From positions 1-42,450 of the forward strand of contig DASWIS010000019.1 of the NCBI GenBank assembly GCA_036397555.1: 42,450 bases of DNA, in the 5' to 3' direction. This DNA comes from Candidatus Zixiibacteriota bacterium (GTDB taxonomy: Bacteria; Zixibacteria; MSB-5A5; WJJR01). A program made the position numbers and the translations under genes. The notes beneath the pieces were generated by a model. It saw nothing but the letters and a program-made list of their open reading frames with translations. It did no database searches and had not been told where the DNA came from. Every line of letters begins with the position of its first letter. Position 1 is the first letter of the stretch. Shown here piece by piece: positions 22,620 to 37,324 of this stretch.

Positions 22620-22787
22620 GGTTCGGCTCCGCTCACCATCAACGGTTCGGCTGCGCTCACCATAAATGGTTCGGCTGCGCTCACCATCAATGGTTCGGCT
22701 GCGCTCACCATAAACGGTTGGGCTCCGCTCACCATAAACGGTTCGGCTCCGCTCACCATAAACGGTTCGGCTGCGCTCACCATAAAC
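22620..22787. repeat. 24-bp tandem array, seven units
   Basis: Copies of GGTTCGGCTGCGCTCACCAT plus AAAC/CAAT/AAAT start at 22620, 22644, 22668, 22692, 22716, 22740 and 22764. They differ at single positions (G/C in the eleventh base; CAAC, AAAT, CAAT or AAAC at the end). The array lies exactly between the der stop and the next ATG. Because 24 is a multiple of three, the downstream frame is open throughout; another frame repeats MVSAAEPF and ends in a TGA that overlaps the DUF6504-like ATG. Confidence 0.9.
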
Positions 22788-22789
22788 GG

Positions 22790-24136
22790 TCAATTCTTCT
22801 TACGGAAGACCAGACGAATCGGCACACCCTCGAATCCGTAGCGTTCGCGCAAGCGGCGTGTCAGGTAGCGAATATACGGCGCCGCGATCAAATCGGGGTG
22901 ATTGCAGAACAGGATGAAGGTCGGCGGCGGGTCCGGGAGCTGGGTCACGTAGTTGATTTTGATGTAGCGTCCCTTGATCGCCGGCGGCGGCTTGGAGGCG
23001 GCATCGGCCAGGACGCTGTCATTCAACTCCGATGTGGCGATCCGTGTCTGCAGTGTTCCGGCAATCGTGCGCGCCATGGTCAGAACCCGCGCGGCGCGCT
23101 GCCCGGTCAGCGCCGAGATGAACACGATCGGCGCCCAACTGATGGTGCGGATGCGGCTGCGCAGATCCTTCGCATAGGCGCCGGCGGTGTCGGTGTCCTT
23201 CTCCACGAGGTCCCACTTGTTGACCGCGAAAAACAGCCCCTTGCCCGCTTCGATGGCGGTTTCTGCGATTTTGAAATCCTGGAGTGAGAGCGGCTCCGAC
23301 GCATCCAGCAGGACACAGACGATATCGGACCGATGCACCGCACGGATGCTGCGCAGCGCGGTGAAGAACTCGAGCTGATCTTTGACGCGCGCGCGTTTGC
23401 GGAGCCCCGCGGTGTCGATCAACACGAACGGCTGACCCTCGTAGGTGAGTGTCGTATCGATCGAATCACGGGTGGTCCCCGGCTCGGGCGAGACGATCAT
23501 CCGTCCGCTGCCCAGCAGCACATTCGCCAATGATGATTTGCCGACATTCGGTCGTCCGACCAGCGCGACGTGAATCGGACGTTCACCCTCTTCTTCCCCT
23601 TCGCCATCGGACAACGGCGCCACCGCCGCACCGATTCGTTCAAGCAGATCGGGAATACTCTGTCCGCCGAGCGCGGAGATTCCGAGCGGATCAAACGGCC
23701 CAAGCTTGGTGAATTCGTAGATGTCGCCTTCCTGAGCGCGTTTGTCGATCTTGTTGACGACAAAAACAGCGGGCTTTCCGGACTTCAGGAGGAACCGCGC
23801 AATCTGACGATCCTCGGGCTGCGGTCCGGCGATGCCGTCGACGACAAACACAACCGCATCGGACTCCTCGATGGCCAGTTTCGATTGCGCGGTGATGTGC
23901 CGCTGCATCTCCTCTGTCCCAAGCGAAGCCGGGGGATCGTCCGAATGCAAGACGAGGCCGCCGGTATCGACCAACGCGAAATGCCGGTCGTCCCATTCGG
24001 CCACCGCATAGTGGCGGTCGCGCGTCACTCCCGAAACCGGCGAGACCACCGCCACCCGCCGTCTCAGGATGCGGTTAAAGAGGGTCGATTTGCCGACATT
24101 CGGCCGACCGATGATGCAGACCACGGGCAGGCGCAT
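22790..24136 (-). CDS. der: ribosome-assembly GTPase Der (EngA)
   Basis: The 448-residue protein has two tandem GTPase domains and a C-terminal KH-like domain, the EngA layout. Domain 1 has the P-loop GRPNVGKSTLFNRIL with DTGGLV and NKID; domain 2 has GRPNVGKSSLANVLL, DTAGLRKR and NKWD. The end, FVLIDTAGLRKR through GVPIRLVFRKKN, is complete. Der binds the 50S subunit and is essential for its maturation. The ATG at 24136 has only a weak Shine-Dalgarno. It heads the der / DUF6504-like / plsY / gpsA minus-strand series. Confidence 0.98.
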   Translation of the reverse strand: MRLPVVCIIGRPNVGKSTLFNRILRRRVAVVSPVSGVTRDRHYAVAEWDDRHFALVDTGGLVLHSDDPPASLGTEEMQRHITAQSKLAIEESDAVVFVVDGIAGPQPEDRQIARFLLKSGKPAVFVVNKIDKRAQEGDIYEFTKLGPFDPLGISALGGQSIPDLLERIGAAVAPLSDGEGEEEGERPIHVALVGRPNVGKSSLANVLLGSGRMIVSPEPGTTRDSIDTTLTYEGQPFVLIDTAGLRKRARVKDQLEFFTALRSIRAVHRSDIVCVLLDASEPLSLQDFKIAETAIEAGKGLFFAVNKWDLVEKDTDTAGAYAKDLRSRIRTISWAPIVFISALTGQRAARVLTMARTIAGTLQTRIATSELNDSVLADAASKPPPAIKGRYIKINYVTQLPDPPPTFILFCNHPDLIAAPYIRYLTRRLRERYGFEGVPIRLVFRKKN

Positions 24137-25268: not shown

Positions 25269-26510
25269 TCACCACGTAAAAAACCACGTCGCCGAATCGG
25301 GGACTGCGACAGTGCGGCGCAGGATGGCGCCGGAGCCGAGACGGATTTCAAATTCGTATTTCGTGTCGGCTGGGTCGAGCGTTTCGCTCGGGAATACATC
25401 CAGCGCCCAGTATCCGGTCGAATCGGAAGTTGACGAAACCTGATATGGAGAGACTATCAAGTTTGCGTGTCGCAGCGGTGACGCTACGATTCGAGCCAAC
25501 ACAGACGCCCCCTCGACAGTCCCGGCAGTCAGATCAGACACCCAGCCGTAGACACGACAAAGATCGGGTTCCGCCGGTGAACCGGGGTCGAACGCGGTGG
25601 CCCAGGCGGTGTCGGTCACACCGGCGGGTGTGACGACGACAATCTCCGGCTGCGGCGCAAAGATCAGGCCGCCCTGATAACCGTAGACATGGAACGTGTC
25701 GGCATCGAGCGCAAAGATCACGCGGCCGTTGGCATCCGACACACCCGTTGCGGCGGTGGCAGTTTCATCGGAGTTGTAGACGCGCAGCAAAACGCCCTGC
25801 AATGCAACTGTGTCATCGAGAACGGCCTTGAGCACGTAAACGGTGCAGGGGTACGCGCCGCCGCCCGAACAATCGCTGCCTGCTGCGGCCCCGAAATTGT
25901 CGTCGTGGGGAGCGTGATCGTTGACCGTGTCACGCACTTGCTGCGCATACTCCCGCGCCGCCTGGACCGTGCGGCCGAAACTCCAGCCGTTGTCGAAGAC
26001 CGTACCTGCGGTGTCCCGATTCAGCAGCGTATCGGCCAGCTCGCGCGCGGCCGAACCCTCGATCGCGGCCGCGGTGATCGCATTCGTGCCCAGCAGGTTG
26101 ACCAGACCAAGTTGTGTGCCCGATAGATTGACCGATGCTCCCTGATTGGCGACGTCGTCCCAGTTGATGCCGATGTTGTCGGCCGTCGTCAGCGTGGAGA
26201 CGCCGTAGGATGACAAGGCCGCATCGACCTGCGCCCGGACCGCCGAATCGACATCCGTCTCATGCTCATAGCGCACAACGTCGGCGTACAACGTGTCGGA
26301 CGACAGGGCGATCCCGTACGCGATGAGTGTCGATTCGACCGCCGCGCGGATCAGCGAATCCAGCCAGGCGCACGCCAGCGTGCAGGCGGGCGTGTCGGCC
26401 CGCGCCGTCGTGACGACGGTCAATGGCCCATCGACCGACAGGCGGGCGGAGAAGACAATCGCACTTGCAAGGCACGCCAGCAACGCGACGCGTTTGACTC
26501 TGTTTGTCAC
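25269..26510 (-). CDS. signal-peptide protein with Ig-like domains, last gene of capsid block
   Basis: The 413-residue product starts at a GTG (26510) that overlaps the previous stop in GTGA, with CGGAGG upstream. The N-terminus TNRVKRVALLACLASAIVFS reads as a signal peptide, cut perhaps after TTARA. A helical, alanine-rich middle follows (about 50-210). Then come two carboxypeptidase-regulatory-like (transthyretin/Ig) domains: VLLRVYNSDETATAATGVSD..GRVIF and VYGWVSDLTAGTVEGASVLA with SDSTGYWALDVFPSETL. The tail TVAVPDSATW resembles the ends of some phage fibre proteins. A longer frame upstream reads the antisense of the previous gene and is rejected. Its role could be a fibre, spike or surface partner of the capsid proteins. 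Confidence 0.65.
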   Translation of the reverse strand: MTNRVKRVALLACLASAIVFSARLSVDGPLTVVTTARADTPACTLACAWLDSLIRAAVESTLIAYGIALSSDTLYADVVRYEHETDVDSAVRAQVDAALSSYGVSTLTTADNIGINWDDVANQGASVNLSGTQLGLVNLLGTNAITAAAIEGSAARELADTLLNRDTAGTVFDNGWSFGRTVQAAREYAQQVRDTVNDHAPHDDNFGAAAGSDCSGGGAYPCTVYVLKAVLDDTVALQGVLLRVYNSDETATAATGVSDANGRVIFALDADTFHVYGYQGGLIFAPQPEIVVVTPAGVTDTAWATAFDPGSPAEPDLCRVYGWVSDLTAGTVEGASVLARIVASPLRHANLIVSPYQVSSTSDSTGYWALDVFPSETLDPADTKYEFEIRLGSGAILRRTVAVPDSATWFFTW

Positions 26511-27259
26511 GGAATTTCCTCCGGATTGACGATGATGATGCGGCATGAGTCGGGCTCGATGATCACCTGACATTCCGCCCCGCACGCATCCACGGTGTAC
26601 GTGCAGTAGATATTGGCGTCCGCCAGACCGGTGGCCGTGACGAGACCGCCCGGATCGGGATATGTGCCCGTGTACGTGTATGACGTGCGCCGCCAGTACG
26701 TAAACCCGACATCGAACTCCGCTTTTATCTGCGTACTGAAGCTGGCCCAGGCGACCAGGAAGTATTGTGTGCCCGCTTCCAAACACACGTCGCCGTCGAT
26801 TGCCAGCGACGACCAGCCCGCGCCGTTGACGCCGGGGTCTTGTTCGACCGTCACGCCGACCAACGACGTGTCGGCCGCCAGGTAAATCGCGCATTTGAGC
26901 TTGTTACCCGCCGTGCCGCCGCCGTCGGACAGATAGACGGTGATCGAGTCAGCCGTCCCGCCGGACGCGCCGATCGTGTAGTTGTCGCCGACAATCGCGT
27001 TCTGAATCGACGCGCCGCTGGCTCCGGGCGTGCCGTTGTTGCCGAATATCTCGGCATGCAATGCAGTTGGTATTGCGAACACCATCATCGCCGAAGTGAC
27101 CATCCCGCCAAAATAACGGCGGGCAAGTCTCAAGAGAGGACCTGCGGCGACCCGCAGACCCCGCCTGAAGGCGGGGCGACTATCCGCCAAATTAACGGCG
27201 GTCAAGTTTATCCGTAGAGATTTCCGAAGGATCACTATCGGGAGCGGCAACAGTTTCAT
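26507..27259 (-). CDS. secreted beta-rich protein in capsid block, start uncertain
   Basis: From the ATG at 27259, which has a strong GAGGAG, the frame gives 250 residues. That start lies 68 bases inside the end of the upstream gene. The region has alternatives: a TTG at 27133 would give LRLARRYFGGMVTSAMMVFA, a textbook signal-peptide start, and the ATG at 27103 gives MVTSAMMVFAIPTALHA with no positive n-region. In every case a hydrophobic stretch ending in ALHA looks like a secretion signal. The mature part (AEIFGNNGTPGASGASIQNA onward) is glycine- and threonine-rich beta structure, jelly-roll-like, with cysteines near the end (CGAECQV). The function is unknown. Its stop overlaps the last gene by 4 bases. 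Confidence 0.6.
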   Translation of the reverse strand: MKLLPLPIVILRKSLRINLTAVNLADSRPAFRRGLRVAAGPLLRLARRYFGGMVTSAMMVFAIPTALHAEIFGNNGTPGASGASIQNAIVGDNYTIGASGGTADSITVYLSDGGGTAGNKLKCAIYLAADTSLVGVTVEQDPGVNGAGWSSLAIDGDVCLEAGTQYFLVAWASFSTQIKAEFDVGFTYWRRTSYTYTGTYPDPGGLVTATGLADANIYCTYTVDACGAECQVIIEPDSCRIIIVNPEEIP

Positions 27260-27362
27260 GTTTCTCCTCAGCCCTCAAGAGAGGACCTTCGGCCCTCAAG
27301 AGAGGACCTTCGGCAAATTCAAACCGATGCCGATGGCCGAAGGTCCTCTCTTGCCGAAGGTC
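27129..27362. repeat. 21-bp repeat family inside capsid block
   Basis: CCCTCAAGAGAGGACCTTCG plus G occurs twice in tandem (27271-27291, 27292-27312), then as an inverted copy at 27334-27362. Partial copies are at 27129-27143 and, altered, at 27655-27686. The tandem pair encodes AEGPLLR repeats in the small helical gene. A separate hairpin CCCCGCC-TGAA-GGCGGGG (27159-27176) adjoins the first copy. Confidence 0.75.
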
Positions 27363-27629
27363 TTCATCAGGCGGATGGTCCCCGCCTGCGGCGGGTGAGT
27401 CGAATCCGTCGGACAAGCGATCCTTGTCGGTCTTAAGGGCTGCGTTGTCGCCGTACTCGGCCAGCTCTTCATGGCGCATCCGGTCGATCATGCCCCAGAA
27501 TGTTCGTTCGGCATCGGCCGCCGGCGACAGTCGCGATTTCAATTCCATCAGACGCACGAGATCGGTCAGCTTGACATTCAGTTCCGTACCGTCGAGTTCA
27601 TCCCAGCAGCGATCGAGCAATTGCTGCAC
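27192..27629 (-). CDS. small helical protein of capsid block with duplicated tail
   Basis: The core LLDRCWDELDGTELNVKLTD and LVRLMELKSRLSPAADAERTF is predicted helical. From about residue 110 the tail carries the duplicated octad AEGPLLRAEGPLLRAEE, encoded by the 21-bp repeat. The start is unclear: the frame is open back into the previous gene, and I place it at the first GTG (27629) after the repeat at 27655-27686. There is no Shine-Dalgarno there. I recognise no family. Its length and position suggest a structural or accessory protein of the block, expressed with its neighbours. Confidence 0.5.
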   Translation of the reverse strand: MQQLLDRCWDELDGTELNVKLTDLVRLMELKSRLSPAADAERTFWGMIDRMRHEELAEYGDNAALKTDKDRLSDGFDSPAAGGDHPPDEDLRQERTFGHRHRFEFAEGPLLRAEGPLLRAEEKHETVAAPDSDPSEISTDKLDRR

Positions 27630-27700
27630 ACGCAGCAGATCGCCGGAGGTACTCTCTTGAGGGAGGGCCGAAGGTACTCTCTTGAGTGCTGGGGGCGGTT

Positions 27701-28072
27701 TTAGTGTCGCGCTTCGACGATCCACAGGTCCACCAGTGCGTTCTCCGCGGCGTCGGTCATGGCCAGGCGCACGCTGGTATCGGTCGGGATGCCGACCACG
27801 GCGACGCCGGCAGCGCCGCGGGCGATCGGGATCACGACCGGCTGCTCGATGGTCGTCGGAAGCGGGTTGCCGCGATGATCGGTCAGTGTCGCAAACGCAA
27901 TTGTCTGCGCCTGGCCGCCGATGTCGAATTGAGAGAATACAACCCGCGTGCCATCGTCGTGCGTCTCCGTCGCAACGGCCGCAATCGTCTCGGCGACCAA
28001 ATCGCCGTTCACCGATACCGTCGGGACAAACCACGCGCGCCGGCCCGTCAATTGTGCCAGTGTCGTGTTCAT
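27701..28072 (-). CDS. small beta-rich protein of capsid block
   Basis: The 123-residue product starts at an ATG (28072) with GGAGGAG eight bases upstream. It is almost all short beta strands (FVPTVSVNGDLVAETIAAVA, RVVFSQFDIGGQAQTIAF, VVIPIARGAAGVAVVGIPTD) and has no cysteine and no signal peptide. This composition fits a minor capsid, neck or tail-end protein, but I do not recognise a family. It follows the 274-residue protein after a 300-base gap that contains only a REP-like hairpin. The long alternate frame covering it on the same strand is a shadow. Confidence 0.55.
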   Translation of the reverse strand: MNTTLAQLTGRRAWFVPTVSVNGDLVAETIAAVATETHDDGTRVVFSQFDIGGQAQTIAFATLTDHRGNPLPTTIEQPVVIPIARGAAGVAVVGIPTDTSVRLAMTDAAENALVDLWIVEARH

Positions 28073-28372
28073 AGACAGTGCTCCTCCAACCAGACACATC
28101 CTCCGTCACTCAGAGGCGGGTGGTCCGCCCCCAGTGACCAACATGTCCAACTCACAAGGGGCGGACCCGCAGGCGGTGTTGGGAGGAGGTTGGCGGATGA
28201 TGACGCGTGACCGAGACCATCGATCACACGCCGTTGATTGTTCAGCTTGCCACTTGGGCCCAACTCATCCAACCCTCAAACGAGTTTCTCCATGCTCCCT
28301 CTCGCTGTAGCCAGGGGTCCCGAGCGAAGCCGAGGGAGAGAGGGCCGGGGTGAGGGGCGCTGTTGGAGCGAT
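28073..28372. other. 300-nt gap in capsid block with a REP-like hairpin
   Basis: No gene is supported here. A G/A- and C/T-rich inverted repeat, CCCTCTC (28298-28304) with GAGAGGG (28338-28344), encloses GGGGTCCCGAGCGAAGCCGA. The rest holds the ribosome site of the next gene (GGAGGAG). The 300-base break may mark a lost or never-present gene. Confidence 0.5.
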
Positions 28373-29197
28373 TCACGTCCGCCTCCCACTTTGCAGCCCC
28401 GAAACCGGCGCGGCAAAGCGCGACAGCCGGACCCGACCGCTCTCTTCGTATTGCGCGGCGATCTCCATCCATGTCTGCGAAACGGCGCGAGACTGGCTGG
28501 AGAGCAATCCGGCATCGGCCAGTGTGGCGACCGCGCGCATCCGGCAGACTGCGGCCACCGCCCAATGGGTCTCACCGATGACGATGCCCGGTGTCGGCAC
28601 ATCGCGGTATTGCGGATCGATCATGGCCAGCACAGCGTCGCCGACATCACTGATGGCGGTATCAATCACTTCATCGGAGACCGTTCCCAAGGCCACGAGA
28701 TAATCAACCAGCACACGCTGCCCGTCGGCGATTGCGCCGGTGCTGCGGCGCGACAGCTCGCCTGTTGTGAGACTGATGGCGTAGTCATCGCCCTCGACGT
28801 ATTGATGATAATATTCGTACCAGACTGTCACCGTCTGCGGCGAAACGATCGACCCGGCGGCGAGACGTTTGATCCGCCCGTCGTCGTAATCGACGATGAA
28901 ATCGGTGTTTTCGCTGTAAACGGTGCCGAGTGAACTATCCGCTGCCACAACGACCGCATCGGGAATCAGACGCTGATGTGACAGATTCACCCAGTCGGAG
29001 GCGAGGGTTACAGTCTCACGGATCAGCGACGGCGGTCTGAGCGCCTTGACGATCACGGATCCGGACACCAGTCCCCCGTGGGCGAGCCCAATCGCCTCGA
29101 TACCGTCGAGCGTGACGGCGAAGTCGCTGATCGCCGCTTCGCCGACGCGCAGTTGTGTCAGGTGCCGGCGCACAAGCTCCGGCGACGTAAATGCCAT
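28373..29197 (-). CDS. phage-like structural protein with a duplicated beta motif
   Basis: The 274-residue product starts at the ATG at 29197 (MAFTSPELVRRHLTQLRVGE); the frame is open further upstream but only as antisense of the previous gene. Two copies of a beta motif occur in the middle: FIVDYDDGRIKRLAAGSI..TVWYEYY and YAISLTTGELSRRSTGAI..VLVDYLV. A helical C-terminal part follows (TLADAGLLSSQSRAVSQTWM). Duplicated motifs of this DxxxGxixR..GSI type are known in phage head-tail and fibre-like proteins. It sits directly behind the beta-propeller gene. No enzyme motif is visible. The placement makes it a probable particle protein. Confidence 0.6.
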   Translation of the reverse strand: MAFTSPELVRRHLTQLRVGEAAISDFAVTLDGIEAIGLAHGGLVSGSVIVKALRPPSLIRETVTLASDWVNLSHQRLIPDAVVVAADSSLGTVYSENTDFIVDYDDGRIKRLAAGSIVSPQTVTVWYEYYHQYVEGDDYAISLTTGELSRRSTGAIADGQRVLVDYLVALGTVSDEVIDTAISDVGDAVLAMIDPQYRDVPTPGIVIGETHWAVAAVCRMRAVATLADAGLLSSQSRAVSQTWMEIAAQYEESGRVRLSRFAAPVSGLQSGRRT

Positions 29198-29237
29198 GGT
29201 CAGTCTCGTAGAAGATTGAAAGGTTGACGGCCCGGTT

Positions 29238-30665
29238 TCATGATAACGTGCGCACGCCCGACGTGTCGACGAGCGCTGTGAGCTGCGATCCGACCGGCGG
29301 CGTGGTGAATGATCCCGAGACAACGGCGCGGACCCAGTAGCGGTTGATGCCGTTGACCGATGCGCGCTGCCAATCGCCTGGCGCGGCGGTCCCGTCGGCG
29401 AACAGACGGACTGTACGGTCGGCTTGGTTGAAATGGTAGAGGCCCGAATCGGGCGCAAAAGTGATCCACTCCTGCCCATTCCAATACGACCACTCGACTG
29501 CGCCGCCGGAGCCGGTGGTCGCCAGGATTGCGTGAACGACGGTGAAACGATCCTCGCCGCCGAGATAGACACTGTCGCCGATGTCCGCCATCAGCGCCGA
29601 TGAGCTCGGATGCAGAATATCGGCGCCGCCGGCATCGGCGGCGGCGGCCGTCAGATCGACGAACGGCGTCGGTGCATCGGCGTCGTGGCACAGCACTGTG
29701 GCAAACACGGACAATTGTGACAGCGCGTTGACCGGCGTCGTGAAGACGGTGCCGTCGCGATGAGTCTCGACCAATTGATTCTGCCCTGTGCCGATCGATC
29801 TCAGGTAGAGCATGTGCGGCACGGTCCGGATGTATCGCAGCAACGGTGCGGAAACGGGCGTCGTGCTCACTGTTTGCAGTGCGCCCCATGCCGCGCCATC
29901 ATATTCCTTGAGAAACAGCTCACCATCGGCGGCGAAGCAGACACCGAGCCGCGCATCGGCTGCGACCGCCGCATGGAAATCCGATCCCGCGCCGGCACCG
30001 GTGTAGAGAGTTTCTTCCGAGCTCCAGAGCGCCGCATCCAGGTGACGTGGCCGATGTCGCAGCGATGTCCCGTCCACCGAATACAGACAGTGAATGAAAG
30101 CCGCACGGGCGATGAGCAAACCATACCCCGAGCTCACGCTTCCTGACACGTCCGTCCCGGCGTCGGTCGATCCGGACCCGAATGTTGCGCCGTCGTCGAC
30201 CGACGATTTTGTTCGCACGGTGACGGTGCCCGCGTCATTGCGCGTCCAGACCACCCAGAGACGATCGTATGCGTCCTTGAGAATCGACGGATCGCCGTTC
30301 GACGACGACGCCGAGTCGTAGACGGTCGACGCCGTCTGGGGAATCCAACTGCCGTTGCTGTGGACCAGCTTGAGGGAGCGCAGCGCGCCGGTGATCTCCT
30401 GCGTGTACGCCAGGTAGAGATTGCCATCGTCATCCATCACGCCGCTGAACGATGCATCTGCTGACTCGGTCACGACATCCAGCGGATCGCTCCAGTTGAC
30501 ATAGGGCGCGTTCGCGTACGAGACCGACAGGATCGACGGCGTGCGGGCATACAGCGCCGGCATCCGTCCGGCATACGGGCCGGATGCCAGGCGAAACAGC
30601 CGATGCTGCGTCGCCAGACCGGTCGGAACCGTGGCGGTCGATGCGCCCAGTGATTTGTGGATCAT
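29238..30665 (-). CDS. BNR/beta-propeller-like protein of capsid block
   Basis: The 475-residue product has repeated segments ending in short aspartate or glycine turns (SGVMDDDGNLYLAYTQEITG, DGDPSI-type, VDGTSLRHRP), the look of BNR/sialidase-like propeller blades. The C-terminal part has VEWSYWNGQEWITFAPDSGL, VRLFADGTAAPGDWQ and NGINRYWVRAVV, a domain seen at the ends of large phage baseplate or tail proteins. There is no signal peptide. It starts 12 bases after the capsid gene with no obvious Shine-Dalgarno, so translation may be coupled. A catalytic sialidase site (Arg triad, Asp) cannot be confirmed. It may be a receptor-binding or particle-surface protein. Confidence 0.65.
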   Translation of the reverse strand: MIHKSLGASTATVPTGLATQHRLFRLASGPYAGRMPALYARTPSILSVSYANAPYVNWSDPLDVVTESADASFSGVMDDDGNLYLAYTQEITGALRSLKLVHSNGSWIPQTASTVYDSASSSNGDPSILKDAYDRLWVVWTRNDAGTVTVRTKSSVDDGATFGSGSTDAGTDVSGSVSSGYGLLIARAAFIHCLYSVDGTSLRHRPRHLDAALWSSEETLYTGAGAGSDFHAAVAADARLGVCFAADGELFLKEYDGAAWGALQTVSTTPVSAPLLRYIRTVPHMLYLRSIGTGQNQLVETHRDGTVFTTPVNALSQLSVFATVLCHDADAPTPFVDLTAAAADAGGADILHPSSSALMADIGDSVYLGGEDRFTVVHAILATTGSGGAVEWSYWNGQEWITFAPDSGLYHFNQADRTVRLFADGTAAPGDWQRASVNGINRYWVRAVVSGSFTTPPVGSQLTALVDTSGVRTLS

Positions 30666-30677
30666 GGTCGTGTGATC

Positions 30678-31784
30678 TTATGTCCAGACCGAGTCGAGGA
30701 CTTTGACTGCTCCTGGGACCATCTTCGCATAGGCGACCGACTCGGAGATGACCGCCTCTTCGAAGCGTTGGTCGATGATCTTGTCGTATTCGACGGTCAG
30801 CGGCTGCGTGATGACTTCCTCGGCGGCGAATCGTTTGTCCATGCCGATGACCAGGTCGGTCGCGACTTCATCGGAGCGAACCAGCGTGGCGCCCAGCGGG
30901 CTGACCAGCTCACCGGTGCCTTGAAACTTGAATCCGGCCAACGGGTCCTTGAACTCGGCCATGGTGAGGATGCTGTTGACCTTCGCCTTGGAGACGATGA
31001 GCGTGTTCATTTCAAACGGGTGCAGCTCCGACCAGAACGAGACCAGGTCGGCGTACGCGAGCGTTCCCGAGGCGGCTGTGTTGATCACCGTCGCGGCGTT
31101 GTCGTTGCCGTCGCCGTTGATGAGCACGTCGACCAACAATCCCAGCTTGTCGACCTGCATGCGGTAGCCGATGTACCACAACAGCACTTTGAACTGCGCG
31201 GTCGTGCGATGGCGCAGCGCTTTGTATGAGGCCTTCAGCGCCAGCCCGTAATCCTGCACGTCGATTGAGTGAAGCCGTTCGGTCACGACCACCGCGGGGA
31301 CATTGGCGCCGTCACCGACGGGCCGCAGCGACCATTGCGCGTCGTCGGTGTCGGAGTTGATGTCGAACGGCGTGTAGCGGTTCGAACTGATGGTCGAGCT
31401 CGAACCGACCAACCCGGCCAATTCCGGTCGCATCTCCATGCCGCGCCGGATTTCCCGCATCATGAATTCCGGCAGCAGCGCCGGCGCCGCCCGCAAGAAC
31501 AGTTCGACGGTGATCGGCCGCGATCCGCCGACGCGCACACCGCGCGCGGCCAACTGGCGCTCGAACGCATCCAGCGGCGAATGGACCGGCGAAGGATCGT
31601 AATCGTCGGTTTCCAGAAGCTCCGAAACCGTCAATCCCCGCGCTTCCGCCTCCAGGTAGGTGTCGCGCGAAACATCAAGCTGACGCGCCCGCCGCAGATC
31701 GACCGTACCGTCGATGCGCGGTTCCTCGGACGCTTTCTGCAGCATGCTGCGCGGTGCGTCCATCAGCATTTTGTCCAAATCCAT
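30678..31784 (-). CDS. major capsid protein, HK97-fold-like
   Basis: The 368-residue product starts at an ATG (31784) with a strong AGAGGAGAGAGG. A charged N-terminal region of about 95 residues (MDLDKMLMDAPRSMLQKASE, DLRRARQLDVSRDTYLEAEA) resembles the delta or scaffold domain that a prohead protease would remove. The body has LAGLVGSSSTISSNRYTPFD, then a long spine-helix candidate ALKASYKALRHRTTAQFKVL and a P/A-domain region, DLVSFWSELHPFEMNTLIVS through ITQPLTVEYDKIIDQRFEEA. This matches HK97-type capsid proteins in layout; I identify it by pattern, not by search. It could equally be an encapsulin-like shell protein. Confidence 0.75.
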   Translation of the reverse strand: MDLDKMLMDAPRSMLQKASEEPRIDGTVDLRRARQLDVSRDTYLEAEARGLTVSELLETDDYDPSPVHSPLDAFERQLAARGVRVGGSRPITVELFLRAAPALLPEFMMREIRRGMEMRPELAGLVGSSSTISSNRYTPFDINSDTDDAQWSLRPVGDGANVPAVVVTERLHSIDVQDYGLALKASYKALRHRTTAQFKVLLWYIGYRMQVDKLGLLVDVLINGDGNDNAATVINTAASGTLAYADLVSFWSELHPFEMNTLIVSKAKVNSILTMAEFKDPLAGFKFQGTGELVSPLGATLVRSDEVATDLVIGMDKRFAAEEVITQPLTVEYDKIIDQRFEEAVISESVAYAKMVPGAVKVLDSVWT

Positions 31785-31823
31785 TCCTCTCTCCTCTGTT
31801 CGTTGTTTCGCTCAGCGGCGTGC

Positions 31824-31891
31824 GTCAGGAGCCTCGCGCCGACGACATAGTTTCTGAGTGAATCACCACGTGCGGACGCGGTGCTCCTGAC
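31824..31891. repeat. inverted repeat between capsid and decoration genes
   Basis: GTCAGGAGC (31824-31832) and GCTCCTGAC (31883-31891) are a perfect 9-bp pair with a 50-base loop, in a 139-base gap. Could alter relative expression of decoration and capsid genes, or be another mobile palindrome. Confidence 0.5.
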
Positions 31892-31923
31892 CTACGCGAG
31901 GTTTTTGACTTCGGCAGGAGCGC

Positions 31924-32346
31924 TCAATTCAACAGGATCGTGCACTCGGTGGTACCGTTGACGGCAAGAACTGTGCCGCGCGCGATGTTGCCGCCCGCCG
32001 GATCGTTGCCGCCGAGCGCGGGTGCCTGTTTAATCGTGCCCGATGCGCCGCACACGACACGGTTGCCGACTTCGGGGTAGGTCGTCGTGATCGGCAACGT
32101 GCAAACCCCGGCGATCTGCACCGTGGCCAGACGATCGCCGTCGTCGCCGTCTTCCAGCGTCAGATCGATCAGTTTGCCCAACAGTATGTCGCCGTCGCCG
32201 CCCGGACCGACCTCGTGATCGTCGGTGAGCGTCACCGCGTTGCCGATGTCGGCATCGGCCAGCGTGTCGGCGCCCGTGTCTTGCGCGACTTTGAATGTGG
32301 CGAAGACTTCGCCGATCGATTCCAGATTGTGATCGCGTACCGTCAT
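31924..32346 (-). CDS. capsid decoration / cement-like protein (DUF2190-like)
   Basis: The 140-residue product, with start ATG at 32346 and AGGAGGAG in front, begins MTVRDHNLESIGEVFATFKV and has the feature set of small decoration proteins: an initial ATFKVAQDTG segment, a beta core with VGPGGDGDILLGKLIDLTLE and a terminal GTVLAVNGTTECTILLN. DUF2190 capsid cement proteins lie directly before the major capsid gene in many siphophages and bind to its outer surface. The order protease, decoration, capsid is exactly as expected. No membrane segment is present. Confidence 0.7.
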   Translation of the reverse strand: MTVRDHNLESIGEVFATFKVAQDTGADTLADADIGNAVTLTDDHEVGPGGDGDILLGKLIDLTLEDGDDGDRLATVQIAGVCTLPITTTYPEVGNRVVCGASGTIKQAPALGGNDPAGGNIARGTVLAVNGTTECTILLN

Positions 32347-32431
32347 TCACTCCTCCTGGATTGTGCCCGATTCATCACTCTCTCTCTCTTTCCCGTGGAG
32401 ACGGCTGGTGTGAGATCGTATCGACCCACCC

Positions 32432-32734
32432 TCAATCCTTGTTTGCATGGGAATCCGACAATGCCACGCGTCGTGCGCGCGGGGCGAAGGCGCGCTCGAG
32501 CTGCTGTTCGAGTTGTTCGTCCAGGCCCCAAAGTTGATCCGCGTCATCGCCGATTTGCGTCAGGCGTTCGTCCAGCGCCGCCAGAGCGTCATCGTCGTCT
32601 GAGAGCTTCTGCAGCGCGCGAAATCGGCGTCGGATGCGCTCGCACAACAGCGATTTGATCGTGTTCCAGTTGTGCCCGGCATCAGGCCGCCCGGGTGATT
32701 GCGGAGCCGCACGACGATTGACCGAGGCACTCAC
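32432..32734 (-). CDS. small acidic helical protein, possible scaffold
   Basis: The 100-residue product starts at a GTG (32734) with GGAGG four bases upstream; the frame is open earlier but that part overlaps the preceding gene. The body is predicted helical and acidic with heptad-like leucines (LSDDDDALAALDERLTQIGD, DQLWGLDEQLEQQLERAF), a composition like phage scaffolding proteins. Its position between the membrane coiled-coil gene and the decoration gene suits that role, but this is an inference. No motif identifies it. Confidence 0.55.
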   Translation of the reverse strand: MSASVNRRAAPQSPGRPDAGHNWNTIKSLLCERIRRRFRALQKLSDDDDALAALDERLTQIGDDADQLWGLDEQLEQQLERAFAPRARRVALSDSHANKD

Positions 32735-32759
32735 GCTTCCTCCAACTTTTTTGAGTTCA

Positions 32760-33101
32760 TCAGGGGTTGCTCGATTTCCCTTCCAGCAGGACCTCAATGC
32801 GGGTCAGCCGCCGATCCATCGACGTTTCCAGCCGGAACAAATCGTCGCGGCTCGCCACGTCGGTGCGCAGAACCGTCTCGATGGCGACCAGGCGCCGATC
32901 CAGATCGGCGACCGAAACGCGGTCGGCCTTTTCGCTGACGGTCAGGCGAATGCCGTAGACGGTGGTGTAATAGGCCGTCAGCGCTCCGGCGAGCATCACC
33001 ACGATCGTCATGATGACCCGCATCACCGGCTGCGGAATCGGTCCGCCGCCGTGGCTACCGGCGACACGGCTCCCCGGCCGGACCACTGTTCGCGTGATCA
33101 T
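32760..33101 (-). CDS. small membrane coiled-coil protein (holin- or tether-like)
   Basis: The 113-residue product starts at an ATG (33101) overlapping the protease stop by 4 bases (ATGA). A basic N-terminus is followed by one transmembrane helix (VMRVIMTIVVMLAGALTAYY) and a coiled-coil C-terminus (DLDRRLVAIETVLRTDVASR..DDLFRLETSMDRRLTRIEVL). XhlA-type phage membrane proteins have a coiled-coil plus one helix, though usually in the reverse order. It could also tether particles to the membrane. Longer reading frames upstream are not needed. Confidence 0.6.
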   Translation of the reverse strand: MITRTVVRPGSRVAGSHGGGPIPQPVMRVIMTIVVMLAGALTAYYTTVYGIRLTVSEKADRVSVADLDRRLVAIETVLRTDVASRDDLFRLETSMDRRLTRIEVLLEGKSSNP

Positions 33102-34156
33102 GTCTGATAGAGGCGTGTGATGAGCCGGCCCGGCTCGTTGCGTTTGCTGCCGGATCGACATGCAGCACGACGCATGGGCCATCGCCCCGTCACCTCGCGA
33201 CGGCCCACGGTCGTGTACATCGCCCACATCAATCCGGCGGCGATGCCTATGGTTTGTTCGCCTTGAGCGGCGTCGGCCGATTCGAAATGGTCAGCCCGCC
33301 GCCATGATCCCTTCTGCTCGGTCAGACGCTCACCGACGGAAAACAATTCGCATGAATGGATTGTCAGTTCATCGCACACGGCGGGATCGGCGTTATCGCG
33401 CAATGCCAGCAGATAGTCAAACTTGCCGTCGCCGGTGCTCGACCGATCCAGAACGACGGCATGCGTTCCACACTGCGGCGCACGCGGCGAATCGGATTTG
33501 CAGAAGACCGGTGCGGCAAAGTGAGTTCCCGGCGTGGCGCCCCGATAGACCAGTGACGTTTCCAGCACGCGGGTGATCTGGCGGTATTCGTAATGAGCGG
33601 ATTGCGATTGCCCGGTCGCGTCGGCGTACTCGTGTCCGGGAATGTGATCGCACGTGCGGATGTCCTGCCCGCAAACCGAGCAGCGCGGCAAACGAAATTC
33701 AAAGCCGATCGACCCCTCCTTGACGATGCCGCTGTCGATGTCGGCCGCCAGGCGGTCACCGTGCGGACTGCGAAGCCAATAGAATGAAACTTCGATCCAC
33801 GATCGACCCTGTACGGCCGGGCGCGCATCGAAATTGCGGGCGACCGGAAGCCGCGTGCGGTCGTGTCCGATGAGCACCGGCGTATCGATCAACAGCGCAC
33901 AGAGGGGTCCATATTCTTCGACCGGGAAGCGGCCGCCGTGATCGTTGACCTCATCGGAGATCAGCCGCAGACTTCGGATATGAACGTCCTCGCTTCTTAA
34001 CAGAATGGGCGGCTTGATGCGTTGATTGATGAGAGCCATCAGCTCGCCGCATCGTGTCCGCTTCGACTCTTCGGCGGTTTTGACAAGTTCGGCTCGCCCC
34101 AACTGAAGCTGCCCCCGCAACATCACGCCGTTGCCTGCCGTGGTCTGTTCGATCAT
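33098..34156 (-). CDS. prohead-protease-like protein with a Cys/His insert
   Basis: The 352-residue product starts at an ATG (34156) with GGAGG six bases upstream. After a first helical part it reads DTPVLIGHDRTRLPVARNFD, IDSGIVKEGSIGFEF and then CSVCGQDIRTCDHIPGHEY, a pattern found in phage prohead maturation proteases: a catalytic His in GHD, a Ser in the GSIGF strand and a zinc-like CxxC...CxH insert. It also has LETSLVYRGATPGT. Such a protease cleaves the scaffold and the N-terminal arm of the capsid protein during assembly. It is the first gene of the capsid block. The catalytic residues are a proposal from spacing. Confidence 0.65.
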   Translation of the reverse strand: MIEQTTAGNGVMLRGQLQLGRAELVKTAEESKRTRCGELMALINQRIKPPILLRSEDVHIRSLRLISDEVNDHGGRFPVEEYGPLCALLIDTPVLIGHDRTRLPVARNFDARPAVQGRSWIEVSFYWLRSPHGDRLAADIDSGIVKEGSIGFEFRLPRCSVCGQDIRTCDHIPGHEYADATGQSQSAHYEYRQITRVLETSLVYRGATPGTHFAAPVFCKSDSPRAPQCGTHAVVLDRSSTGDGKFDYLLALRDNADPAVCDELTIHSCELFSVGERLTEQKGSWRRADHFESADAAQGEQTIGIAAGLMWAMYTTVGRREVTGRWPMRRAACRSGSKRNEPGRLITRLYQT

Positions 34157-34567: not shown

Positions 34568-35416
34568 ATGTTCAAGCGCACCATGCTTTGCACTGCCTTG
34601 GTCGTCTGTCTGTATCTGTCACCGGTTCAAGCGCAGTTCGGCATCGACGACGGCCCGCGCGGCAACTCCGGCGCCATCACGATGCGGATTGATGTCATGC
34701 CGGGCTGGTGCCCGAACTCCGTTTTCATGTCGCCCGTGTATGAAGTCTACACCGTGCGACCCGGGCGCGCGGTTGCGCCGGATTTGATTGCGGTGGCCGT
34801 TGCGGGAACGCCGACGTTGCAGGCCGCCGCCTATGATCCCACGACCGCGAATCTGGAAGGCGTTTCACCCTTGCGGTATGAATTCAGGGACATTATGGCC
34901 GCCGACGTTCCCGAAGGAGGTCCATGCGCCTGCCGACGGTCGATGCCCGATGGACTCGAAGACGTGGTCCTGTATTTCCCGCGCGGCGAGTTTGTCGCCG
35001 CGATGGAGCCGATTGTCGACACCGAGCGCCGGATGGTCCAACTGGACATGATGTACGGCGGATACATGCAGTCGGGCCTGGATTGTGTTCGCTTCTATAC
35101 ATCGGTCAAGACCATCAGCCCGGCCGCGGCGGAGCTGCCCGCTGTCGCCAATCTCGTCAACTATCCCAACCCGTTTAACGCCGAGACCGTGATCACGTTC
35201 GAACTGGGTACGCCGCAGGATGTGACACTCGACGTGTACGACGTGCTCGGGCGACATGTCGCGCGGCTCATGGACGGGCTGCAGGCCGCCGGAGTGCACT
35301 CAGTCGGCTGGGACGGCATCGCCGACAACGGCGCACCGCTCGGATCGGGAATGTACTTCTACCGTGTGCAGAGCCGGCAGTTCAGCGAAGTACGCAAGAT
35401 GATCCTGTTGCGATGA
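34568..35416 (+). CDS. secreted protein with T9SS/FlgD-like C-terminal domain
   Basis: The 282-residue product starts at an ATG with GGAGGG in front; upstream in-frame codons are leader. The signal peptide is FKRTMLCTALVVCLYLSPVQ with cleavage after AQA-like residues. The body contains cysteines, including the CACRRSM stretch, and a beta core. The last 90 residues are the classical C-terminal domain: NYPNPFNAETVITFELG, VTLDVYDVLGRHVARLMDG, WDGIADNGAPLGSGMYFYRV and ending KMILLR. This domain directs secretion through the type IX system in Bacteroidetes and relatives (or is a FlgD-Ig-like anchor). The body itself is not recognised. It reads divergently from the capsid block. Confidence 0.82.
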   Translation: MFKRTMLCTALVVCLYLSPVQAQFGIDDGPRGNSGAITMRIDVMPGWCPNSVFMSPVYEVYTVRPGRAVAPDLIAVAVAGTPTLQAAAYDPTTANLEGVSPLRYEFRDIMAADVPEGGPCACRRSMPDGLEDVVLYFPRGEFVAAMEPIVDTERRMVQLDMMYGGYMQSGLDCVRFYTSVKTISPAAAELPAVANLVNYPNPFNAETVITFELGTPQDVTLDVYDVLGRHVARLMDGLQAAGVHSVGWDGIADNGAPLGSGMYFYRVQSRQFSEVRKMILLR

Positions 35417-35653: not shown

Positions 35654-37324
35654 TCAACGGCGGCGCTTGCGGCCGTCCGTCAGCTCAGCCGCGTACTCGA
35701 GCGTCCTTTCGGTGATCCGATCACCGGCCACCATGCGCGCCAACTCGCCGATTCGCTCTTCTCCACGTAGAAGACGCAGGCGGACTTTGGAGCGACCCCG
35801 CACGGTTTGCTTTGAAATTTGCACGTGCGAATCGGCGGGCGCGGCCATCTGTTGCAGGTGGCTGACCAAAAAGACCTGGGCATGCTTCGAGAGATCCGCA
35901 ATGCGCGATGCCACTTTGTGCGCCGTTTCGCCGCCGATTCCAGAGTCGATTTCGTCAAAGACGTACAGCCGATTGTCGTGCGGGCCCCCGGTGATCGTCT
36001 TGAAAGCGAGCAACAGACGCGACAACTCGCCGCCGGAGGCGATCTTGTCCAAGGGCTTGAATCCCTCGGCGGGGTTCGCCTCGAAGAGAAACCGGATGCG
36101 CTCGGCGCCATTCGGTCCGATCGCATCAGTCCCGTCAATAACTGTTGGGGCCATCTCGACCTGGATGCGCGCCCCCGACATGCCCAATGTCGACAGCAGG
36201 GCATCGACCTTCTTCTCCAGTGTCGGCGCCGCGTGACGCCGCTGTGCGCTCAACGCGGATGCCAAAGCGGTGAGCTGCCCCTGCAATTGTCCGACTGCGT
36301 CGCTCAGTTTCCTGACACGCACTTCCAGATCACCCGCTGATTGTTCCTCGGTTTGCAATTCGTCCAGGCGCGCGAGAATGGCTGCGCCGGTGGCGCCGTA
36401 TTTGGACTTCAGACGATGCAACAGCGCCAGGCGCGATTCGATCCGGTCCAACTGTCCGGGGTCGAACTCCAGCGATTGCCGATAGTCCGCAAGCGAACGC
36501 GTGGAATCGGCGACGGCCTCCTGTGCAGCGTTCAATTGTTCGGCGATCTTGCTCCAGCGCTCATCGAGCTCGGCCAGCCGTCCGGCATCGCGCACCAGCC
36601 GCGCGATGATGTCCGACACCGAGCCATCGGTCTCACTCAACGCCGAGAGCGCACGTTCGGCGCCCTCGATCAGGCGATGGCCATGGCGTAAGATCGAACG
36701 CTCAGAGACAAGCCGTTCCTCTTCGTCGGCGACGATGGCGGCGGCCCTGATCTCATCGATCTGGAAACGGCGGAGCTCCTCGCGGCTGCACTCAGATTCC
36801 CATGCGGCGGTCGCCTCCGTCAGACGCCGTCGTGCGTCGGACAATTCGGCATGGACGTCGGCGACCGACGAGGACAGTTCGACGCAGCCCCCGAAGCGAT
36901 CAAGCAGCTCGGCATGACGGTCGGAATCGAGCAATAGCTGCTGCTGATGCTGGCCGCACAAATCGGCCAAGGATTCGCCCAGTGCGCGCAACTCCGTCTG
37001 CCTGAGCTGCCGCTCGCCGACAAACGCGCGTGTCGTTCCCGACTGCGCCAGTTCGCGGCGCAGCCACAACGATCCGGTCGGCAGCGACAGCGTCGCGGCG
37101 ACGGCGGAATCGATGGCATCGAATTCCGCTTCGACCATCGCTTCCCGCGCACCGGTGCGCACCATCTCCGACACGACACGTCCGCCCAGCAGAAAACGGA
37201 TCGCCTCGACAATGACTGTCTTGCCAGCGCCCGTTTCGCCGGTGAATACCGTCAGCCCCGGCGCGGCGTCGAACTCCAGATCATCGACGATGGCGAAGTT
37301 GCGGATGCGCAGACGGGTCAGCAT
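35654..37324 (-). CDS. recN: DNA repair protein RecN
   Basis: The 556-residue SMC-like ATPase helps repair double-strand breaks. The N-terminal Walker A is in VFTGETGAGKTVIVEAI (K35), the middle is a long coiled coil, and the C-terminal half holds the signature KIASGGELSRLLLAF and Walker B LYVFDEIDSGIGGETA. The length is the family's norm (about 550). The ATG at 37324 gives the usual MLTRLRIRNFAIVDDLEFDA start. A small membrane protein lies 43 bases upstream on the same strand. The short 35417-35653 gap downstream holds no supported gene. Confidence 0.97.
   Translation of the reverse strand: MLTRLRIRNFAIVDDLEFDAAPGLTVFTGETGAGKTVIVEAIRFLLGGRVVSEMVRTGAREAMVEAEFDAIDSAVAATLSLPTGSLWLRRELAQSGTTRAFVGERQLRQTELRALGESLADLCGQHQQQLLLDSDRHAELLDRFGGCVELSSSVADVHAELSDARRRLTEATAAWESECSREELRRFQIDEIRAAAIVADEEERLVSERSILRHGHRLIEGAERALSALSETDGSVSDIIARLVRDAGRLAELDERWSKIAEQLNAAQEAVADSTRSLADYRQSLEFDPGQLDRIESRLALLHRLKSKYGATGAAILARLDELQTEEQSAGDLEVRVRKLSDAVGQLQGQLTALASALSAQRRHAAPTLEKKVDALLSTLGMSGARIQVEMAPTVIDGTDAIGPNGAERIRFLFEANPAEGFKPLDKIASGGELSRLLLAFKTITGGPHDNRLYVFDEIDSGIGGETAHKVASRIADLSKHAQVFLVSHLQQMAAPADSHVQISKQTVRGRSKVRLRLLRGEERIGELARMVAGDRITERTLEYAAELTDGRKRRR

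Follow-up and report, generated by a model that had tools for sequence, protein, structure and literature searches.

The 42,450-bp contig DASWIS010000019.1 (contig C19 of assembly GCA_036397555.1, genome G000), from a Candidatus Zixiibacteriota bacterium, was analyzed over its entire length, which is referred to here as the window. The genome is 2.63 Mb in size, 100% complete and 0.06% contaminated. A block of eleven intact co-directional genes, running on the minus strand from position 34156 to 25269, encodes a prohead-protease-like protein, a capsid decoration protein, an HK97-type major capsid protein (MCP), and a set of putative neck, tail and exported proteins. This block is probably one locus of a gene transfer agent (GTA)-like element of Zixibacteria. 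Gene calling with codon scores identified no internal stops. Two gene pairs (F0 and F8, F22 and F6) overlap by 4 bases, and the remaining gaps are 12–300 bases long. The base composition of the block is the same as that of its flanks, which are chromosomal and carry recN on one side and der/engA on the other. An initial annotation of this DNA had described the intact genes, the overlaps, the three types of head protein and the chromosomal flanks, and all of these were confirmed, the head proteins by PHROG matches and by invariant residues in the protease. Relatives of every block gene were found across the class to which the genome belongs, and the observation is therefore not due to chance. 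Among named genome contigs, close MCP relatives are from Candidatus Zixiibacteriota or metagenome-assembled genomes (MAGs), with one filed under candidate division GN15.

No portal or terminase gene was identified in the window. The only matches in the genome, a single one for each of the portal and the large terminase subunit (TerL), are located on contig C15, while in most class-mates these two genes lie directly upstream of the protease gene. The portal protein of a class-mate matches PHROG_3753 (1.3e-18), and the TerL of a class-mate matches PHROG_2 (1.2e-32) and exceeds the cut-off of Pfam Terminase_6N. The capsid genes without packaging genes noted in the initial annotation are thus true of the window but not of the genome, and represent one locus of a split element. 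The Walker A (GNRWGKS), Walker B (DE) and STP motifs and the nuclease residues D291/D345/D424 are near-invariant in TerL. Its structurally characterized relatives are TerLs of phages, and its best full-length phage matches are from Thermus phages P23-45, P74-26 and G20c, which are headful packagers. Contamination was considered as the source of contig C15 and rejected, based on the low contamination estimate and on the tree built from head genes including portal and TerL, in which the genome falls within its own family. Considered by itself, the window would fit a domesticated DNA-free shell, that is, an encapsulin-like compartment, as the initial annotation had also suggested. Encapsulins, however, consist of one shell gene with its cargo and need neither portal nor terminase, whereas this genome retains both, the catalytic residues are intact, and the two genes are found together with MCP throughout the class, making a DNA-free shell very unlikely.

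Among 132 genomes of the class, MCP was detected in 111, TerL in 113 and portal in 111, nearly always as one copy each, and 96 genomes encode all three. All three genes are present in 50 of the 54 high-quality genomes (≥95% complete, ≤5% contaminated). MCP and TerL co-occur in 102 genomes (Fisher p = 5e-5), a signal partly fed by genome completeness, and absences are blurred by the incompleteness of MAGs. Beyond the class, the MCP profile matches 11 of approximately 277 genomes, with a sporadic distribution. A search of IMG/VR with the MCP sequence alone retrieved no match. With the MCP alignment, 287 relatives were retrieved, including one close match at 62% identity; the others among the matches listed share 35–40%. 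The close match, L217 (IMGVR_UViG_3300027896_005586), carries the cassette and has an MCP near-identical to that of the chromosome of G011, and is probably bacterial DNA mis-filed as viral.

The evolutionary history of the head genes was compared with that of their hosts. When a tree was built from MCP, TerL, portal and the decoration protein, 14 of 23 splits recurred in the tree of Der and RecN, against a mean of 0.27 and a maximum of 3 in 1000 label shuffles. Most of the well-supported splits in single-gene trees are also shared (TerL 12/13, decoration protein 6/6, MCP 8/10, portal 8/11). The MCPs of the class form one clade relative to outside homologues, with a support of 99, and the head genes of G000 group with those of its own family. 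Mean pairwise amino acid identity is 62% for MCP, 51% for Der and 38% for RecN. The ratio of nonsynonymous to synonymous substitution rates (dN/dS), a check proposed in the initial annotation, is 0.013 and 0.021 for MCP in two close pairs, compared with 0.076 and 0.034 for Der, and is also below that of RecN; it is low for every head gene in close pairs, indicating strong purifying selection. The chromosomal site is conserved as well. In family f1 (the window, G002 and G005) the cassette is located between recN and der, and in families f8 and f18 it is embedded among other common neighbors, with F16-F14-F15 upstream and F9-F19-F13 downstream. The block belongs together with the portal and TerL genes elsewhere in the genome. 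The set is single-copy and class-wide, strong purifying selection acts on it, and it has diversified along with its hosts.

These observations bear on the possibility that the block consists of decaying prophage remnants, or results from a Zixibacteria-specific phage lineage that has infected these hosts repeatedly. Both explanations would predict the tailed-phage origin of all parts and the distant homologues of MCP that are seen in phages and prophages. Neither, however, accounts well for a nearly always single-copy, class-wide set with host-congruent trees, conserved sites and dN/dS down to 0.013. In addition, no integrase, integration or replication gene was recognized near the cassettes, and the sole close match in IMG/VR corresponds to a chromosomal sequence. 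In related genomes the block is more than the variable leftovers of complete prophages, and we regard a prophage or recurrent phage origin of this kind as highly improbable.

The packaging and capsid genes adjoin each other in most class-mates and are far apart in others. Portal/TerL and the capsid genes are separated by 60 kb (G002), 29 kb (G030), 91 kb (G050), 0.41 Mb (G097) and 1.29 Mb (G059). In G024 and G063, which belong to the genera of G050 and G059, the distance is only 6–7 kb. The genes have been dispersed repeatedly with their frames intact. A set scattered over such long distances could not be propagated by a virus, while a host-serving element can carry it. The compact set of approximately twelve genes is reminiscent of a satellite element, another proposal of the initial annotation, which would exploit a helper phage, but it has its own MCP, portal and TerL, no integrase was seen, its sites are fixed, it is not mobile across hosts, and the parts lie far apart. 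We consider a satellite extremely improbable.

The features of the two loci are listed in Table 1. The protease-like protein F0 was identified in 31 of 32 sampled genomes, and relatives have a long C-terminal extension. It matches a PHROG family of unknown function. Comparison of 19 class members revealed an invariant His98 and Ser149 (KECSIGF context), presumably the prohead protease motif, together with a CxxC..CxH motif. The near-invariance of the putative catalytic residues fits a prohead-protease-like protein. In G015 (L114:7982-10183), a member of this family carries a fused ATP-dependent DNA ligase domain (Pfam 3.6e-30) and a tail that by eye resembles a LigD phosphoesterase; other members have a degenerate YDGL-like C-terminus. 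The decoration protein F1 shares 47–82% amino acid identity throughout the class. The MCP also matches Pfam Phage_capsid_4 (1.4e-5), slightly short of the family cut-off, and profile searches of the PDB with MCP, protease and portal returned no match at E-values up to 1. The MCP gene of G081 is broken, with its pieces 0.6 Mb apart (C1, near 1725304 and 2322220) and a stretch duplicated, probably reflecting a rearrangement (inversion) or an assembly fault.

Table 1. Genes of the capsid-and-neck block, its chromosomal flanks, and the packaging genes of the same genome (positions in the window unless contig C15 is named).
Feature	Position	Strand	Length (aa)	Basis
Prohead-protease-like protein F0	33098..34156	-	352	PHROG_16951 (3.1e-16) and invariant residues
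Small protein F8, N-terminal membrane helix followed by coiled coil	32760..33101	-		Same position in 23/32 sampled genomes
Small helical-looking protein F21, slot between protease and decoration genes	32432..32734	-		Slot kept in close relatives
Capsid decoration protein F1	31924..32346	-	140	PHROG_4588 'virion structural protein' (2.3e-5)
HK97-type MCP F2	30678..31784	-	368	PHROG_3922 'major head protein' (3.9e-59)
Beta-propeller protein F3 with C-terminal beta domain	29238..30665	-	475	AF2 pLDDT 93.4
Structural protein F4, N-terminal helix, beta repeats, three-helix C-terminus	28373..29197	-	274	AF2 pLDDT 86.9
Conserved small protein F5	27701..28072	-	123	29/32 sampled genomes, adjoins F4
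Small helical protein F7	27192..27629	-	145	25/32 genomes
Predicted exported protein F22	26507..27103	-	198	Hydrophobic signal-like N-terminus in sequence; family in related genomes
Predicted exported protein F6	25269..26510	-	413	Conserved Ig-like C-terminal half; kept in 29 genomes
recN	35654-37324			Flanking gene
der/engA	22790-24136			Flanking gene
Portal	C15, 76290-77411			Single match in genome
TerL	C15, 77510-78796			Single match in genome

Over the whole cassette, the gene order is portal, TerL, protease, F8, small helical protein, decoration protein, MCP, F3, F4, F5, F7, a variable gene and F6, and in many relatives a holin-like gene (F12) ends the cassette. F8 has a possible lysis or spanin-like role, and F21 may be a scaffold. 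Foldseek matched F3 to PLL-type lectins, to sialidases and to chain M of the portal-tail complex from phage LME-1 (9efk_M, E 2e-10). On the basis of its modeled fold, F3 is a candidate short-tail nozzle or carbohydrate-binding tail protein, although propellers are common folds. The beta-repeat region of F4 matches a tail protein family (PHROG_807, E 6e-9), and fold searches gave weak, partial matches to phage tail and neck proteins only; F4 is a candidate head-tail adaptor. F5 may be a head-completion protein. Database searches with F7 gave no match, including none supporting a small terminase. However, its homologue is located between portal and TerL in G009, G010, G017 and L046, and F7 is therefore proposed, by gene position only, as a candidate small terminase subunit.

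The last two proteins, F22 and F6, have signal-like starts, which are unusual among virion proteins. Such an N-terminus was found in 27 of 29 F6 members by a crude rule that also fires on many Der proteins, and the export of F6 is suggested mainly by the aligned N-termini. The F6 member in L043 matches a tail fibre family (PHROG_892, 8e-7). F6 is predicted to be a surface, receptor or fibre-like protein.

Six features have been used to define GTAs (Kogay et al., 2022; PMC9662315): proteins derived from caudoviricetes, encapsidation of mostly random host DNA, an endogenised genome that often occupies several loci, a genome that cannot be fully packed in one head, vertical inheritance with co-diversification, and delivery of DNA to other cells. 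Three of the six are found here. The MCP, portal and TerL are caudoviricete-derived (PHROG_3922, PHROG_3753 and PHROG_2), the element is endogenised at several loci (C19 and C15 in G000, and the separations in relatives), and it is vertically inherited and co-diversifying, as seen from the shared splits and the MCP clade. The element is therefore called GTA-like. In several lineages it is very likely too spread out to be packed into one head, judging from the distances and not from a head capacity. We infer, with a probability of roughly 0.77, that the block encodes the capsid and neck of a GTA-like element of Zixibacteria that has been domesticated, is inherited vertically, and packs and transfers DNA. 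The domesticated capsid and the GTA relative proposed in the initial annotation are well supported by the single-copy, class-wide distribution, congruent trees, purifying selection and fixed sites. The element was probably domesticated independently and is probably short-tailed. Judging from its genes, it most likely allows cells to load fragments of their own DNA into virus-like particles.

By architecture, the nearest described analogue is FpGTA of Faecalibacterium (Nat Commun 2026, PMC12946183), which is nearly ubiquitous in its genus. It has an operon of about 10.5 kb with a small terminase (TerS) candidate, TerL, portal and MCP, podovirus-like proteins without a long tail, and a second operon about 125 kb away. 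Its resemblance to the present set lies in the pair of operons, the roughly 10 kb devoted to head genes and the absence of a visible tail. FpGTA, however, belongs to one genus of Bacillota, and its particles and packaged 9-kb DNA have been seen, whereas the Zixibacteria set spans several families of a class and is represented by genes. The alphaproteobacterial type I RcGTA (Rhodogtaviriformidae) is similar in its deep vertical inheritance, co-diversification, and structural cluster with additional loci (PMC9662315, PMC10883770), but its tail is siphovirus-like and includes a tape measure, hub and megatron, none of which was recognized in the Zixibacteria set. The Brachyspira GTA (VSH-1/BhGTA) has a single-copy terL outside the structural cluster (PMC9662315), as in G000, but has a flexible 65-nm tail and belongs to another phylum.

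Bacillus PBSX and PBSX-like clostridial cassettes show the order TerS-TerL-portal-protease-decoration-MCP. The clostridial cassettes carry the nearest MCP relatives outside the class in viral-labeled records (33–40% identity, PHROG_3922), but they have a contractile tail (sheath, PHROG_279) and are often found within longer prophage-like regions. Three unannotated 'Bacteriophage sp.' records from human feces (L201, L202 and L203; MT835508, MT835952 and MT835769) contain Firmicutes-like sequence together with PBSX-like cassettes; MT835508 also bears ribosomal-protein operons. The relationship to PBSX raises the possibility that the particles pack host DNA without delivering it, acting as PBSX-like killing or decoy particles or providing DNA that serves outside cells. 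No DNA-injection apparatus was clearly identified in the Zixibacteria cassettes, and the authors of the FpGTA study also left the question of delivery or killing open (PMC12946183). A killing particle would be expected to have a killing tail, however, and no sheath, tube or tape-measure gene was recognized in these cassettes by PHROG and Pfam searches, while the adaptor- and nozzle-like proteins are conserved. Particles without delivery thus appear quite unlikely.

Head cassettes in other phyla (G286, G328, G274, G409 and G138) share MCP, decoration protein and mostly F4, sometimes with an adjacent TerL and often with signal-peptide proteins, but differ in their sporadic occurrence. G274 and G409 (L205 and L206), from two genera of one family in another phylum, have a common cassette of decoration protein, MCP and protease genes, each followed by an EF-P-like gene, so that other phyla may harbor an inherited element of this kind. 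In G138, also from another phylum, the genes are still more scattered: MCP and decoration protein share a contig, and portal, protease and F4 are found on a second one, interspersed with unrelated genes (L127, L128).

For the GTA-like element, the following mechanism can be proposed. Upon induction, the MCP, the decoration protein and the protease would produce small heads. These would be loaded by TerL, possibly aided by F7 as small subunit, through a headful mechanism with any DNA available, chiefly that of the chromosome, and F4, F5 and F3 would seal the head and build a very short tail. Lysis would free the particles, possibly involving the holin-like F12 in relatives, and the DNA would reach kin, with the exported F6 and F22 perhaps acting as surface partners. 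A broader scenario, which is tentative and on balance unlikely, is an ancient short-tailed gene-transfer system, ancestral to the class and related to the cassettes of other phyla, in which the Sec-exported surface proteins of the operon would be the partner for recipient docking or uptake, and donor and receiver parts would be co-inherited.

Several points weigh against a GTA-like element. Assembly, packaging and transfer are predictions from the genes, no endolysin or long-tail gene was found, and the tail and lysis parts are weakly assigned. Some of the long distances rest on MAGs with unchecked assembly, and the TerL match in G059 is partial. G023, a single contig that is 99% complete, has MCP and portal without TerL, and G039 (98% complete) and G109 (92%) lack MCP, TerL and portal.

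To our knowledge, the GTAs whose genes have been identified come from only a few lineages. A literature search whose coverage left out most of the subscription journals and bioRxiv found no paper linking Zixibacteria to GTAs, and such a system appears to be new for the phylum. If this reading is true, it adds an independent, probably short-tailed origin of GTAs in a phylum known mainly from environmental MAGs, and implies long-term selection for packing own DNA. Other such systems might be found by looking for conserved head genes whose portal and terminase lie at a different chromosomal site, and the repeatedly split loci are natural tests of why such genes persist.

Some further features were observed in the window. 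A gene adjoining the cassette (34568-35416) encodes a protein with a type IX secretion sorting domain (Por_Secre_tail, 2.5e-6). A short tandem repeat (22620-22800; ALTINGSA or TVYGERSR readings) lies between der and a DUF6504 gene. The F7 gene and its surroundings (27140-27700) contain repeated stretches, among them GAAGGTCCTCTCTTGAG, that may belong to a genome-wide repeat.

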